Below, in pieces: positions 5,784 through 57,097 of a stretch of 64,000 nt of DNA. This stretch comes from Deferrisoma camini S3R1 (GTDB taxonomy: Bacteria > Desulfobacterota > Deferrisomatia > Deferrisomatales > Deferrisomataceae): assembly GCF_000526155.1 (NCBI RefSeq), contig NZ_JAFN01000001.1, positions 1,244,501-1,308,500 on the forward strand, in the 5' to 3' direction. Made by a program: the position numbers and the translations under genes. Within the stretch, counting starts at the first letter, position 1; every line of letters starts with the position of its first letter. The notes under the pieces were generated by a model. The model had not been told where the DNA came from. It did no database searches and was given only the letters and a program-made list of their open reading frames with translations.

Positions 5784-7508
5784 CTACTCCCCCTCGCATC
5801 GGTTACACCGGTCGCCCAGCAGGATCGGCTGGTCCGGCCTGGACCCGTGGCGGTACAGGGTAATGCCCTTCAGCCCCAGGCCGTGGGCCTCGCGGATCAG
5901 CCGGGCCGCCACCTCGGGGCCGGCGTGGGGGGGCAGGTTCACCGTCTTGGACACCGCGTTGTGGGTGTGGGCCTGGAACGCCGCCTGCACTCCCAAGTGG
6001 GCCTCGGGCTCCAGGTCGAGCGCCGTGGCGAACCGGGCCTTCAGGTCCGCGGGCACCCCCGGAACCCGGGCCAGTGAGCCCTCGGCCCGGACCCGCTCCA
6101 GCACCGGTCCTGGATCGATGCCCCGCTCCCGCAAGGCCGGCTCGAGTAGGGGGTGCACCCCGAACGAAACCGTGCGGTCGTGGAGGCGCCGGGCGTAGGC
6201 CAGGCTGAACAACGGCTCGATGGATCCCGACACCCCGGCCAGGATCGAGATCGAGCCCGTGGGCGCCACCGTGGTGACCGTGGCGTTGCGCATGGCGCGG
6301 AACCCCTGGTGCTCCCACCGGCTTCCCGGAAACGCCTCGAAGCTGCCCCGCTCCTCCCCCAACCGCCGCGATGCGGCCACGCCGGCCTGCTCCACCGCGG
6401 CCATGATCTCCCGACCCAGGGCCCGGGCCTCGGGCGAGGCGTACGGGATGCCCAACCGGACCAGCAGGTCCGCGAACCCCATCACCCCCAGCCCGATCTT
6501 GCGGGTACGGCGGTTCGCCCGGCCGATCCGGGCCACCGGCGGCCGCGACACCTCCACGCAGTCGTCCAGGAACCGCACCGCCAGGGCCGCGGCCGCGGCC
6601 AGCCCCTCCCAGTCGAGCCCCCCGCCCCGGACGAACGCCATCAGGTTTAGGGAGCCCAGGGTGCAGGACTCGTACGGCAGCAGGGGCTGCTCCCCGCAGG
6701 GGTTCGTGGCCTCCAGGGGGCCCAGGCGGGGCACCGGGTTCGCCCGGTTCACGGCGTCGAGGAACACCGCGCCGGGGTCCCCCACCCGCCAGGCGCCGTC
6801 CACCAGGGCCTCGAACACCTCCCGGGCCGGGATGCGGCGCCACACCGACCCGTCCCTTGGGTTCACCAGGGGCCAGGGGTCGCCCCGGTCCACGGCCCGG
6901 GCCAGTGCGTCGGGAAACCCCACGCTCAGGTTGAAGTTCCGAAGCCCGCCCCCGGCCTTGGCCCTGCAAAACGCCAGGATGTCGGGGTGCGTGGCGGAGA
7001 GGACCGCCATGTTCGCGCCCCGCCTCCGCCCCCCTTGGCGGATCACCCGGGTGGAGGTGTCGAACAGCTCCAGGAACGACAGGGGCCCCGAGGCCACCCC
7101 TCCGGTGGACCCGACCCGGTCGCCCGCGGGCCGGATCCGGGAGAACGAGAACCCCGTGCCCCCTCCGCTCTTGTGGATCCGGGCCATGTGAGCCAGGGCC
7201 CGGTAGATGGCCCCGATGGAGTCCTCCAGGGGCAGGACGAAGCAGGCGGCGAGCTGGCCCAGGGAGGTTCCGGCGTTCATGAGGGCGGGGGAGTTGGGCA
7301 GGAACCGGAGCCCCCGCATCAGGTCGTGGAACCGCTCCGCCCACGGGGCCGGATCCTCCCCCCACCGCCGCTCCACCCGGGCCACCGCCTGGGCCACCCG
7401 CCAAAACAGCCCCTCCGGGTCCTCGGCCAGGGTCCCGTCGGGCCGGCGCCGGAGGTAGCGCAGCTCCAGCAGGGACACGGCCTGGGGCGTCAGGGGGGGG
7501 TACGCCAT
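5784..7508 (-). CDS. nrdJ: Adenosylcobalamin-dependent (class II) ribonucleotide reductase
   Basis: 574 residues. It reduces ribonucleotides to deoxyribonucleotides using adenosylcobalamin to generate a thiyl radical, so it works with or without oxygen. Visible motifs are PNSPALMNAG near the N-terminus, the first redox cysteine in AACFVLPLEDS, the radical/active-site loop ATNPCGEQPLLPYESC with SCTLGSLNL, and a C-terminal C-x-x-C (RCNRCEGE) that would be re-reduced by thioredoxin. The length fits short class II enzymes without an extra N-terminal regulatory region. ATG at 7508 is preceded by GGGAG. cobO, which makes the cofactor, lies about 440 bases upstream on the same strand. No cobalamin riboswitch was seen. 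Confidence 0.95.
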   Translation of the reverse strand: MAYPPLTPQAVSLLELRYLRRRPDGTLAEDPEGLFWRVAQAVARVERRWGEDPAPWAERFHDLMRGLRFLPNSPALMNAGTSLGQLAACFVLPLEDSIGAIYRALAHMARIHKSGGGTGFSFSRIRPAGDRVGSTGGVASGPLSFLELFDTSTRVIRQGGRRRGANMAVLSATHPDILAFCRAKAGGGLRNFNLSVGFPDALARAVDRGDPWPLVNPRDGSVWRRIPAREVFEALVDGAWRVGDPGAVFLDAVNRANPVPRLGPLEATNPCGEQPLLPYESCTLGSLNLMAFVRGGGLDWEGLAAAAALAVRFLDDCVEVSRPPVARIGRANRRTRKIGLGVMGFADLLVRLGIPYASPEARALGREIMAAVEQAGVAASRRLGEERGSFEAFPGSRWEHQGFRAMRNATVTTVAPTGSISILAGVSGSIEPLFSLAYARRLHDRTVSFGVHPLLEPALRERGIDPGPVLERVRAEGSLARVPGVPADLKARFATALDLEPEAHLGVQAAFQAHTHNAVSKTVNLPPHAGPEVAARLIREAHGLGLKGITLYRHGSRPDQPILLGDRCNRCEGE

Positions 7509-52106: not shown

Positions 52107-52925
52107 TCACCTCCCGAACCGCCACGCGTCCCAGTCCGGATCTGGGTAGCGCTCGCGCCGCCACCGCAGGCCCGCGTCCTCGATGGTGCCGGGCTCCCGG
52201 GCCGAGAACAGCACCGTGAACACCCTTCGGAGCACCTCGAGGTGCTGGGCCCGGTTCCCGGGCTCGCCCAGGGCGTGTCCGAACGGGAACCGCACGAACA
52301 GCGCCCGGGGCGGCGGGGTCTTCTCCGTGATCTCCCGCACCACCGACAGGGCCACCGTGGCCACCCCTGCCGCCTCCACCGCCCTCGCCGCCAGTCCCAC
52401 GGACCGGTTGCAGATGCCTCAGGCCGGCACGAGCAGGGCGTAGTCCACACCGGCGCCGGCGAGCCGCCGGGCCACCTCCGGGGCCGACTCCCGCCGCAGG
52501 GTGTCGACGTGGGCCCCGTCGATGTGCCCCATGAACGAGTACCCCACGGCGTGCAGCCGTCCCACCGCCCCTGCGGCCACGGCCTCGCGCAGGCGCTCGG
52601 CCGGAAACACCAGGTTCAGGTCCCTCTCGGCGTCGGTGTGATCGTAGTAGTCGTGGGTGATGGTCAGGTCCCCGGGGTCCGCGTCCAGCGGGATCTCCCG
52701 GAACGACGGGTCCCCGTCCGGATCCGCCATGTCGAACGGGGGCTGGGTGCGCAGATGGAGCCCGCCGGTGGTCACCAGGGCGAGGGTGGCCTCGGCCAGG
52801 GGCTTGGTGACGGGGGTCCAGGGGATCCGCTCCGTGTCGGCCGTGAGCCCCCGAGCCCACCGGGCCGCGAGCCCCGGGACCCGGCTGAACACCTTGGCCA
52901 GCATCCGGTCCTTCCAACCGCCCAT
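52107..52925 (-). CDS. GrdB-family selenoprotein with in-frame UGA (Sec169)
   Basis: The frame from ATG 52925 (AAGGAG upstream) runs to a TGA at 52419-52421 and continues without break for another 104 codons to a TGA at 52107. Read through, it gives 272 residues with selenocysteine at 169 in a U-G-I-C motif: DYALLVPA-U-GICNRSVGLAARAVE. This position and context match the glycine/betaine/sarcosine reductase selenoprotein B family (PF07355), where Sec or Cys sits in the same U/C-x-x-C. The N-terminal part (MADPDGDPSFREIP, ITHDYYDHTDAERDLNLVFP) fits short stand-alone members. No GrdA/GrdC genes are nearby, so it is probably an oxidoreductase of unknown substrate. A SECIS-like hairpin follows the UGA. 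Annotating it as two fragments would be wrong. Confidence 0.88.
52391..52407 (-). promoter_or_regulatory. SECIS-like hairpin downstream of the UGA
   Basis: Starting 11 bases after the UGA: stem CCGGTCC / GGACTGG (one G-U) with loop GTG, or a 5-nt CGTGG loop if the top pair opens. Position agrees with bacterial SelB-binding hairpins, which lie immediately after the UGA within the coding sequence. Confidence 0.55.
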
Positions 52926-52967
52926 GGGACGACTCCTTCTGAGGTCGGTGACGGGTGGGAAGAGCCG

Positions 52968-52988
52968 TGACAGGTGACGAGTGACGAG
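52968..52988 (+). repeat. Heptamer array, TGACGAG type (3 units)
   Basis: TGACAGG TGACGAG TGACGAG in 7-nt register. Confidence 0.7.
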
Positions 52989-53016
52989 GAGAGAGCCAAC
53001 CGACTTGCCGCCCTGC

Positions 53017-53037
53017 CACGATTCACGATTCACGATT
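53017..53037 (+). repeat. Heptamer array, CACGATT (3 perfect units)
   Basis: CACGATT three times without mismatch, followed by TACC. Confidence 0.85.
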
Positions 53038-53407: not shown

Positions 53408-53632
53408 ATGGACAGTCCCCGACGAAGTCTGGCCAAAGCCCTGTCGTGGCGCCTGGTGGCCACGGTGGTCACCACGGCCATCGTGTACGCCGCCACCGGC
53501 GAGGCCGAGTTCGCCGCGACCATCGGAATCGCCGACACCGTGGTGAAGTTCGGAGCCTACTTCCTGCACGAACGCCTGTGGAACCGCGTCGCGTACGGCC
53601 GGGTTCGCCACGAGCCCGAGTACTACATCTGA
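53408..53632 (+). CDS. DUF2061 membrane protein
   Basis: 74 residues with two short hydrophobic helices (RLVATVVTTAIVYAATG and FAATIGIADTVVKFGAYFLHERLW). KALSWR and HERLWNR are the DUF2061 hallmarks. The family recurs beside assimilatory sulfate reduction genes, as here (22 bases before cysH), and may be an accessory membrane factor; its function is not established. Confidence 0.88.
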   Translation: MDSPRRSLAKALSWRLVATVVTTAIVYAATGEAEFAATIGIADTVVKFGAYFLHERLWNRVAYGRVRHEPEYYI

Positions 53633-53654
53633 CCGAACGATCAGGAGGCCGACC

Positions 53655-54377
53655 ATGAGCCCACGCCCACCCGCCCTGCCCCCCGGCACCCCGGCCGGGG
53701 AGATCCTGCGCGCCGGCCTGGAAGGAGCCGGAGGCCCCGTGGCCCTGGCCTGCTCCTTCAGCCTGGAGGACGTGGTGGTGCTCCACATGCTCACCACCCT
53801 CGCGGCCGCCCCCCGGGTGTTCGCCCTGGACACCGGCCGACTGCCCGAGGAGACCTACGAGATCGCCGAGACCGTCCGGGCCCGATACGGGGTGGAGGTC
53901 CGCTGGTACTTTCCGGAGCGCGAGGCCGTGGAACGGCTCGAGACCGACAAGGGCCTGTTCAGCTTCCGCGACAGCGTGGAGGACCGGCGCGAGTGCTGCC
54001 GCATCCGCAAGGTGGAGCCCCTGGGCCGGGCCCTGGCCGGGCTGGCCGGCTGGATCACCGGCCTACGGCGGGAGCAGAGCGTCACCCGCACGGCCGTGGA
54101 GCCGATCGAGGTGGACCTCGCCCACGGCGGCATCTGGAAGATCAACCCCCTGGCGGAGTGGACCTGGGACGAGGTGGAGGCCTACGCGAAGCAGCACGGG
54201 GTGCCCGTGCACAAGCTTCACCGGGCCGGGTACCCATCGATCGGATGCGCGCCGTGTACCCGGGCGGTCCGGCCCGGCGAGCATCCCCGGGCCGGCCGAT
54301 GGTGGTGGGAGGACCCCCAGCACAAGGAGTGCGGCCTGCACGTGGCCGCCGAACCGGCCCGGCCCGGCCGGAACTGA
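53655..54377 (+). CDS. cysH: Assimilatory APS reductase (iron-sulfur type)
   Basis: 240 residues. It reduces adenylyl sulfate to sulfite. The SGG-like PP-loop region is ACSFSLEDVVVLHML. The iron-sulfur ligands are the Cys114-Cys115 pair (RRECCRIRKVEPL) and Cys198-x-x-Cys201 (IGCAPCTRAV); the catalytic Cys226 is in KECGLH. Presence of these cysteines marks APS rather than PAPS specificity, consistent with absence of an APS kinase. Electron donor is likely thioredoxin. Followed 15 bases later by cysD. Confidence 0.94.
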   Translation: MSPRPPALPPGTPAGEILRAGLEGAGGPVALACSFSLEDVVVLHMLTTLAAAPRVFALDTGRLPEETYEIAETVRARYGVEVRWYFPEREAVERLETDKGLFSFRDSVEDRRECCRIRKVEPLGRALAGLAGWITGLRREQSVTRTAVEPIEVDLAHGGIWKINPLAEWTWDEVEAYAKQHGVPVHKLHRAGYPSIGCAPCTRAVRPGEHPRAGRWWWEDPQHKECGLHVAAEPARPGRN

Positions 54378-54392
54378 CCTAACGAGGCGACC

Positions 54393-55196
54393 ATGAGAGA
54401 TCCCCTGACCGAACTGGAGAACCAGAGCATCTACATCTTCCGGGAGGCATACCGGAAGTTCGACAGCCTGGCCATGCTCTACTCCGTGGGCAAGGACTCC
54501 ACGGTGATGGCCCACCTGGCCCGAAAGGCGTTCTTCGGCCGCATCCCGTTTCCCCTGGTGCACATCGACACCACCTTCAAGTACCCCGAGATGATCGAGT
54601 TCCGGGACCGGATGGTGAAGGAGTGGGGGGCCGAGCTGATCGTGGGCAAGAACGAGGCGGCCCTGGCCGAAGGCATGAGCCCCGAGCGGGGCCGGCTGGT
54701 GTGCTGCGAGGCTCTCAAGACCCAGGCCCTGTCCCAAACCATCGCGGCCCACGGGTTCCAGGGGCTGTTCCTGGGCATCCGGCGCGACGAGGAGGGCAGC
54801 CGGGCCAAGGAGCGGGTGTTCTCGCCCCGGGACGAGAACTTCGAGTGGGCCTACAAGGACCAGCCCCCCGAGCTGTGGGATCAGTTCAACACCGACTTCG
54901 ACCCGGGCACCCACGTGCGGATCCACCCCCTGCTGGGGTGGACCGAGATCGACATCTGGCGCTACATCGAGCGCGAGGGGGTGGAGATCTGTCCCTTGTA
55001 CTTCGCCCGGGACGGCAAGCGGTTTCGGTCGCTGGGGTGCATGCCCTGCACCGGGGCGTTCCCCTCGAACGCCTCCACCGTGGCCGAGATCATCGAGGAG
55101 CTCCAGGCCACCAAGACCCCCGAGCGGGCCGGCCGTGCCCAGGACCAGGAGAACGCCTACGCCATGCAAAAGCTCCGGGCCCGGGGTTACATGTGA
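54393..55196 (+). CDS. cysD: Sulfate adenylyltransferase subunit 2
   Basis: 267 residues. PP-loop ATP pyrophosphatase motif [14 protein letters not shown], then [37 protein letters not shown] and [18 protein letters not shown], all CysD. With the GTPase CysN it activates sulfate to APS. A 338-base repeat-filled gap separates it from cysN, unusual for this pair. Confidence 0.96.
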
Positions 55197-55199
55197 GAC

Positions 55200-55234
55200 A
55201 GAGTTCAGAGTTCAGTGGACAGAAATCAGGGAGA
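55200..55234 (+). repeat. Heptamer array, AGAGTTC type (5 units, decaying)
   Basis: AGAGTTC AGAGTTC AGTGGAC AGAAATC AGGGAGA, starting 3 bases after the cysD stop. Confidence 0.7.
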
Positions 55235-55245
55235 GCGGGGAGCCG

Positions 55246-55277
55246 CCAGCCTTTCAGCTTTCCAGCTTTCTAGTGTT
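55246..55277 (+). repeat. Octamer array, CCAGCTTT type (4 units)
   Basis: CCAGCCTT TCAGCTTT CCAGCTTT CTAGTGTT; mirror orientation of the octamers beside element copy 1. Confidence 0.75.
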
Positions 55278-55306
55278 CTGTTACGCAAAAAAGCATATCC
55301 ATTCTG

Positions 55307-55469
55307 GTGGTGGGGCTGGGGGCTCCGACAAAGCGCGACGGCCGAGCAACTCGGGCCGCCCGGCGCCAGGGGAGCGGCCGCGGCGCGTGCCCTCACGCGC
55401 CGCAGCGGACCGCGCCGAGGCGGCCCCTGCGAGGCCGTTCAGCGGAGGAGGGGCCCCCAGCCCCACCAC
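55307..55469 (+). repeat. 165-bp structured intergenic element, copy 2
   Basis: 17-bp perfect terminal complement (GGTGGTGGGGCTGGGGG... with its complement) and central hairpin GCGGCGCGTG-CCCT-CACGCGCCGC at 55380-55403. Relative to copy 1 a C-G end pair is replaced by T-A on both arms. Upstream flank CGCAAAA-AGCATAT is shared with copy 1. Confidence 0.88.
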
Positions 55470-55534
55470 ATCGGGGAATACACGAACTCGCGAACCATGA
55501 CACTAGCTTTCCAGCGCCCCAGAGGGGATTCCCG

Positions 55535-57097
55535 ATGACCCGAACTGACACCCTTCGCATCGTGATCGTGGGCCACGTGGACCACGGCAAGTCCACACTG
55601 ATCGGCCGGTTGTTCTACGACACCGGATCGATCCCCGAGGTCCGGTACCGAGAGATCGAGGAGACCTGCCGGCGGCAGGGCCGCCCCTTCGAGTTCGCGT
55701 ACCTCATGGACGCCCTGGAGGAGGAGCGGGAGCAGAACGTCACCATCGACACGGCCCAGACCTTCTTCCGGTGGGAGGGCAGGTCCTACGTCATCATCGA
55801 CGCCCCGGGCCACAAGGAGTTCTTGAAGAACATGATCACCGGCGCGGCCAGCGCGGACGCGGCGGTGCTGCTGGTGGACGGGGTGGAGGGGGTGCGCGAG
55901 CAAACCCGCCGCCACGCCTACATCCTGTCGCTTCTGGGGATCCGCCATGTGCTGGTGGCCGTGAACAAGCTCGACAAGGCCGGCTATGACCGTCGGGCGT
56001 TCTTGGCCGCGGACAACGCGGTGCGGTCGCTGCTCCACTCCCTGGGCATCTCCCCGGAGCACGTGATCCCCATCTCGGCCCGGGAGGGCGAGAACATCGC
56101 CCGAAGGCTCGGGCACACCCCCTGGTACGACGGGCCCACGGTTCTCGAGGCCCTCCACACCCTGGGCGGATCCGGATCCGAGGAGACCCTGCCCCTGCGG
56201 TTCCCGGTGCAGGACGTGTACAAGTGGGACAACCGCCGCCTGTACGCCGGGCGGGTCGAGACGGGGCGGGTGCGGGTGGGCGACGAGGTCCGGTTCTTCC
56301 CGTCGGGCCGCACGGTGCGGGTCCGGACCATCGAGCGGTGGGGAGAGCCCCCGCTCGAGGAGGCCCGGGCCGGGGACTGCGTGGGGTTCACGTTCGACGA
56401 GGAGCTGTTCGTGGAGCGCGGCGAGGTGATGGCCCACCCGGACCACGGCCCGGCCGTGGCCCGGGAGGTCCGGGCCAGCCTGTTCTGGCTCGGCCGCACC
56501 CCCCTGGAGAAGGGCAAGACCTACCTGCTCAAGACGGCCACCACCGAACTGGAGGCCGAGTGCGTGGACATCGAGGACCGGATCGACGCCTCCACCCTGG
56601 AGGTGCGCGAGCGCCACGCGAACGTGCTCGAGAGCCCCGAGGTGGGCAACGTGCTGCTGCGGCTCAAGCGCCCCGCCGCCGTGGACGTGTTCCAGGACAA
56701 CCCGCGCCTGGGCCGGTTCGTGCTCCAGGACGGCCGGTTCATCGCCGGAGGCGGCATCGTGCGGGAGACCCGGGTGGCCGGCGGCGCCCGGGCCGCCCAG
56801 GTGATCCACCTGGACCGCCAGTTTGCCACCGAGCCCGACGGGTACGTGGTGGACCTCACCCGGGAGCGGGGCGAGGTGGAATTCGAGGTGACCCCCCACT
56901 TCCTCGATACCCTTTCGGCCGGAAACCGGGTACTCTTCCGGCTCCGGGGCCCCGAGCAGGTCACGCCGGTGGCCCTGCTGGCCTACGAGCACGACATGGA
57001 GTTCACGTTCCGGCGCACCGACGACGGAGTGGCCCTGGTGTTGTGGCGGCACCCCGGGCCGAGCGCCTCGGTTCCCCTGGAGGGACTCGGACTGTAG
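55535..57097 (+). CDS. cysN: Sulfate adenylyltransferase subunit 1 (GTPase)
   Basis: 520 residues from [22 protein letters not shown]1 [10 protein letters not shown]2 region [16 protein letters not shown]3 DAPGHKEF and G4 NKLDKAGYD are all present, followed by EF-Tu-like domains 2 and 3 and a C-terminal extension ([15 protein letters not shown]). It powers APS formation with CysD. No APS kinase is fused, and the G1 loop is elongation-factor-like (DHGKST) rather than D-D-G-K-S-T, placing it in a divergent subgroup. Confidence 0.92.

Follow-up and report, generated by a model that had tools for sequence, protein, structure and literature searches.

A gene on the minus strand of the analyzed window (64,000 nucleotides of the Deferrisoma camini S3R1 genome), at positions 52925..52107, almost certainly encodes a selenoprotein of 272 amino acids, judging from the conservation of an in-frame UGA codon, purifying selection on the sequence downstream of it, covariation in a putative SECIS hairpin, and the selenocysteine (Sec) machinery present in the genome. 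The gene belongs to an already known, catalogued selenoprotein family (GrdB/PrdB; Pfam PF07355), for which TIGR04483 (PrdB) is the closest NCBIfam model. Translation of the ATG frame with its single in-frame UGA read as U places U169 (52421..52419, minus strand) within LLVPA-U-G-I-C-NRS, and Cys172 (52412..52410, minus strand) forms the second residue of the UxxC motif. Two observations support the start at 52925: a Shine-Dalgarno-like AGAAGGAG, read from the sequence approximately 8 nt 5' of the ATG, and close homologues that align from residue 1. Downstream of UGA 169 are 103 sense codons and a stop (terminal TGA, 52109..52107). The initial annotation had located the gene correctly, leaving its minus-strand orientation unstated, and its description of an in-frame UGA in U-G-I-C with an open frame beyond is borne out by this translation. 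It had also anticipated mis-annotation as two genes. Indeed, translation table 11 breaks the frame into a 204-aa ORF that ends at the UGA (52419..53033, GTG start) and a 97-aa ORF (52107..52400, GTG at 52400), so a standard caller would produce two genes, and the gene will be split in annotations unless the UGA is recoded.

That standard ORF calling splits the frame favors a reading of the UGA as a real stop, either in a decayed pseudogene or between two separate genes, but comparative evidence makes this extremely improbable. Among 38 homologous loci from species genomes (39–92% identity; Deferrisomatales, Geobacteraceae/Desulfuromonas-type bins, Nitrospirota, Chloroflexota including Chloroflexus, Nitrospinota, and one Verrucomicrobia bin), the codon 169 column contained TGA in 37 and GGA in one (L031), i.e., the same-site UGA recurs in dozens of divergent genomes. 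A homologue was detected in 69 of 297 genomes of the phylum at E ≤ 1e-15. Matches of at least 100 bits numbered 79 in these 297 genomes; 77 span the site, all 77 with an in-frame TGA, and the remaining two are fragments outside it (our own tally from the search table). Checked for genuine ends at this position, the homologues continue past the UGA. Cys occupied the Sec position in none of the 38 loci. Hence, of the initial expectation of Sec or Cys at residue 169, the Sec half holds, being nearly universal in the stand-alone clade, and the Cys half does not. Cys172 was invariant in 27 aligned proteins, including the single protein with Gly in place of Sec.

Judged from substitution patterns, purifying selection acts alike before and after the UGA. 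Compared with the five nearest relatives, dN/dS was 0.23–0.36 before the UGA and 0.05–0.32 after it, and third-position changes predominated, indicating that the tail has not decayed. On the basis of UGA conservation and selection on both sides, the two-gene or pseudogene reading was rejected. The sole orthologue lacking the TGA (L031:6001-6801) has GGA (Gly) at the Sec codon and retains Cys172, which is either an error in the sequencing or a sign that the protein functions in a Sec-less form. Separately, UVTC, UITC, UAIC, or UATC replace UGxC in orthologues L020, L036, L072, L074, and L079, indicating that the glycine following Sec is not essential.

A hairpin had been described 11 bases downstream of the TGA, and the candidate SECIS element found there (52407..52391, minus strand) has a 7-bp stem and a 3-nt loop and begins 11 nt after the UGA. 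The single-sequence fold of this hairpin is unexceptional (z = -0.95), and support for it hence rests on covariation. In 33 aligned orthologues, the stem was paired in 96.5% of alignment cells, 16 cells had both sides changed, and compensatory changes occurred at three of the seven pairs (U-A to C-G, G-C to A-U, and U-A to A-U). The covariation score was 0.329, compared to 0.187 in shuffled alignments (0 of 500 shuffles reached 0.329), and it dropped sharply when the stem partner was slid. The selABCD check that accompanied the initial annotation gave a positive result: tRNA-Sec (72.6 bits; ARAGORN tRNA-SeC, anticodon tca), selA (592 bits), selB (340 bits), and selD (354 bits) all scored over curated cut-offs in the same 4.24 Mb genome. 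Together with the covarying stem, this full set of Sec machinery argues further against a real stop. SelB carrying Sec-tRNA(Sec) would bind the hairpin after the UGA and Sec would be inserted at residue 169, as predicted from homology, SECIS covariation, and the machinery itself. The selD gene (G000:C1:2674710-2675627; L052/L056) has an in-frame TGA of its own, and thus it probably also encodes a selenoprotein that standard annotation would split.

By profile scores, the predicted protein is closer to PrdB, of D-proline reductase, than to GrdB, and falls short of both equivalog cut-offs. TIGR04483 was the best model (161.8 bits over residues 35–246, compared to an equivalog cut-off of 300), whereas GrdB-type models scored 33–50 bits, with 41–47 bits for the GrdB, GrdF, and GrdH models. 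The GrdB equivalog itself gave 46.6 bits, far under its cut-off of 602, and PF07355 (GRDB) gave 33.2 bits over residues 30–166 only, exceeding the gathering cut-off of 22. The initial label "GrdB-like" is accordingly sound with respect to PF07355, whereas the closest characterized subunit is PrdB. The likeness to PrdB extends to size (the model is 238 aa), the UxxC motif, and Sec in both, although the genome lacks a PrdA-type partner and the gene neighborhood differs. With GrdB (PF07355, TIGR01917/TIGR01918), the protein shares UxxC and is homologous to the C-terminal half, but the GrdB model is 431 aa long compared to 272 aa here, and the genome has neither a GrdE-type (PF09338) gene nor a GrdA match. 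The product may hence be described as resembling the Sec subunit of GrdB/PrdB reductases, without assigning it to either PrdB or GrdB. A second PF07355-type homologue (37% identity at genome positions 2624009-2624707) is located elsewhere in the genome, within G000:C1:2624006-2624716 (L054, about 6007-6717, minus strand). It has a longer N-terminus and an in-frame TGA in U-P-V-C, with a Crp/Fnr-type regulator and an RND efflux permease encoded nearby.

Proline or glycine reduction is unlikely, as the genome lacks the amino-acid-binding pyruvoyl-type partner (PrdA/GrdE). A profile search of the Deferrisoma genome with PF09338 (PrdA/GrdE-type), which presumably covers PrdA as well as GrdE, returned no match. 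The same profile matched 12 of the 297 phylum genomes, and is thus not blind. PF09338 genes adjoined none of the 79 homologues of at least 100 bits in these genomes, and most of them neighbored true GrdB-type homologues, whose scores against our alignment did not exceed 87 bits, which indicates that the stand-alone clade is separate from the partnered complexes. GrdA (PF04723) was matched neither in the Deferrisoma genome nor in any control genome, so this search had no positive control. Overall, we consider it very likely that the protein is not an amino-acid reductase. A true PrdB of D-proline reductase, its PrdA proprotein being encoded at another site or so divergent that it escapes detection, would fit the top score of TIGR04483, and published surveys class proteins of this type as proline reductase PrdB (PMC2398784, PMC1794560). 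Nonetheless, this is improbable given the score of little more than half the equivalog cut-off, the missing PF09338 gene, and the pairing of PF09338 with lower-scoring GrdB-like homologues instead.

The family has been catalogued since 2005–2008 (PMC1088965, PMC2398784). PrdB with UxxC was among the most abundant selenoproteins in the Sargasso Sea and GOS surveys (42 and 235 sequences, respectively; PMC1088965, PMC2398784), and a proline reductase selenoprotein was recorded for Anaeromyxobacter dehalogenans and a Geobacter species (PMC1794560). The survey "proline reductase PrdB" resembles the protein studied here in its UxxC motif, its assignment to pfam07355, and its mostly Sec-containing members, but differs in having been given a D-proline reductase function by homology (PMC1088965, PMC2398784, PMC1794560). 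Likened by description rather than by sequence, the survey PrdB of marine metagenomes and Deltaproteobacteria is very probably of the same stand-alone kind. In the sections available, the three surveys contain no discussion of partners or neighbors that we could find. The D-proline reductase label, which was retained in a 2026 review (PMC13188914), is probably wrong for the stand-alone members. A literature search for "GrdB-like" or "PrdB-like" selenoproteins and for Deferrisoma selenoproteins found nothing on function. The initial description of such proteins as poorly understood is hence fair as regards function, although the selenoprotein family itself has long been catalogued (PMC1088965, PMC2398784). 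If most of the survey "PrdB" lack PrdA, then one of the commonest selenoproteins of the sea and of Deltaproteobacteria carries an incorrect functional assignment or none.

The genes flanking the selenoprotein gene in the window are shared with close relatives. A gene for an antibiotic biosynthesis monooxygenase (ABM) domain protein (PF03992; 51818..52102, plus strand) is convergent with it, an arrangement found only in the nearest relatives (L009, L010, and L071; at 23 bp in the genus), and the ABM protein is not evidently part of the system. Divergent from the selenoprotein gene are DUF2061, cysH, cysD, and cysN (sulfate assimilation; 53408..57094, plus strand). These are common to the genus only, and cysHDN was rejected as a functional clue for that reason.

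Other neighbors recurred in more distant loci. An exported tandem rhodanese is encoded upstream on the same strand at 30–63 bp in seven loci, plus L077; a small c-type cytochrome gene lies directly upstream on the same strand at 5–158 bp in six loci; and a YHS/HMA heavy-metal P-type ATPase is encoded upstream on the same strand at 14–406 bp in eight loci and nearby in two more. The cytochrome gene is situated between the ATPase and selenoprotein genes in two of the eight ATPase loci, and both rhodanese and ATPase genes flank the orthologue in L073. These counts are not independent, as some loci belong to closely related genomes and a single assembly contributed both L021 and L023. To gauge chance proximity, we used background densities of approximately 115 rhodanese domains and 58 ATPases in about 79 Mb (length summed by us) across 25 orthologue-carrying genomes. 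For the 25 genes, a same-strand rhodanese at 500 bp or less upstream was seen three times (G151, G178, and G285), compared to about 0.01 expected by chance, and an ATPase within 3 kb was likewise seen three times (G119, G178, and G265), compared to about 0.1. As the genomes are related, this excess is suggestive rather than proof.

The recurrence of rhodanese, cytochrome c, and ATPase neighbors points away from amino-acid reduction and toward thiol/selenol redox chemistry in sulfur, chalcogen, or metal stress. A role in sulfur, chalcogen, or metal chemistry is a tentative assignment, held with low confidence. The more specific proposal, that stand-alone PrdB-like proteins are never amino-acid reductases but separate, PrdA-independent selenol reductases that take part, with exported tandem rhodaneses, cytochromes c, and heavy-metal exporters, in a route for detoxifying sulfur, chalcogens, or metals, is more doubtful. 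No neighbor is universal across the loci, and the genus itself has only the ABM protein and cysHDN as flanks, with no rhodanese or metal genes. The lack of a conserved neighbor at most loci, and of rhodanese, cytochrome, and ATPase partners in the window's genus, would fit a Sec-dependent protein of thiol redox or repair whose role is broadly antioxidant and for which these neighbors are incidental; the UxxC motif is also as in thioredoxin-like selenoproteins. Such a role is a real possibility, if short of probable; against it, rhodanese, cytochrome c, and ATPase genes repeatedly pair with the orthologue in several lineages, spaced as in operons. For the sulfur/chalcogen/metal account as a whole, comprising Sec decoding, a stand-alone UxxC oxidoreductase, and, read loosely, the sulfur/chalcogen/metal role, we regard the chances as evenly balanced.

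The AlphaFold model (mean pLDDT 89) has an alpha/beta fold, with Sec169 and Cys172 placed between a strand (residues 162–166) and the start of a helix (residues 172–185). A search of solved structures by sequence yielded nothing relevant, and a Foldseek search of solved structures gave no fold match at E ≤ 0.001. The best VIA-align hit was microcystinase C (Z = 8.4, 14% identity), which was not clear of background. The absence of a fold match does not indicate a new fold. As no solved structure is clearly similar, the chemistry proposed here is extrapolated. The product would be a stand-alone PrdB-type UxxC oxidoreductase in which, based on the motif, the PrdB/GrdB family, and the AlphaFold model, the Sec169 selenolate acts as the nucleophile that attacks or reduces the substrate. 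Cys172 would then serve as the resolving thiol, converting a selenenyl intermediate to an Se-S bond, and going by motif and family, this bond would be re-reduced by a cellular thiol reductant. The most likely substrate, tentatively, may be a sulfane-sulfur, chalcogen, or thiol-bound metal or oxidant species, and in some relatives the partner might be the exported rhodanese, the cytochrome c, or the heavy-metal exporter. The rhodanese, cytochrome, and ATPase operons offer concrete places in which the function of stand-alone PrdB could be tested.

A short (182 aa) cysteine-desulfurase-like ORF, which looks truncated, lies directly upstream of one orthologue (L012:5326-5871). Many short rhodanese-domain proteins in the 25 genomes have an in-frame TGA, and Sec-containing rhodaneses hence look common in the group.
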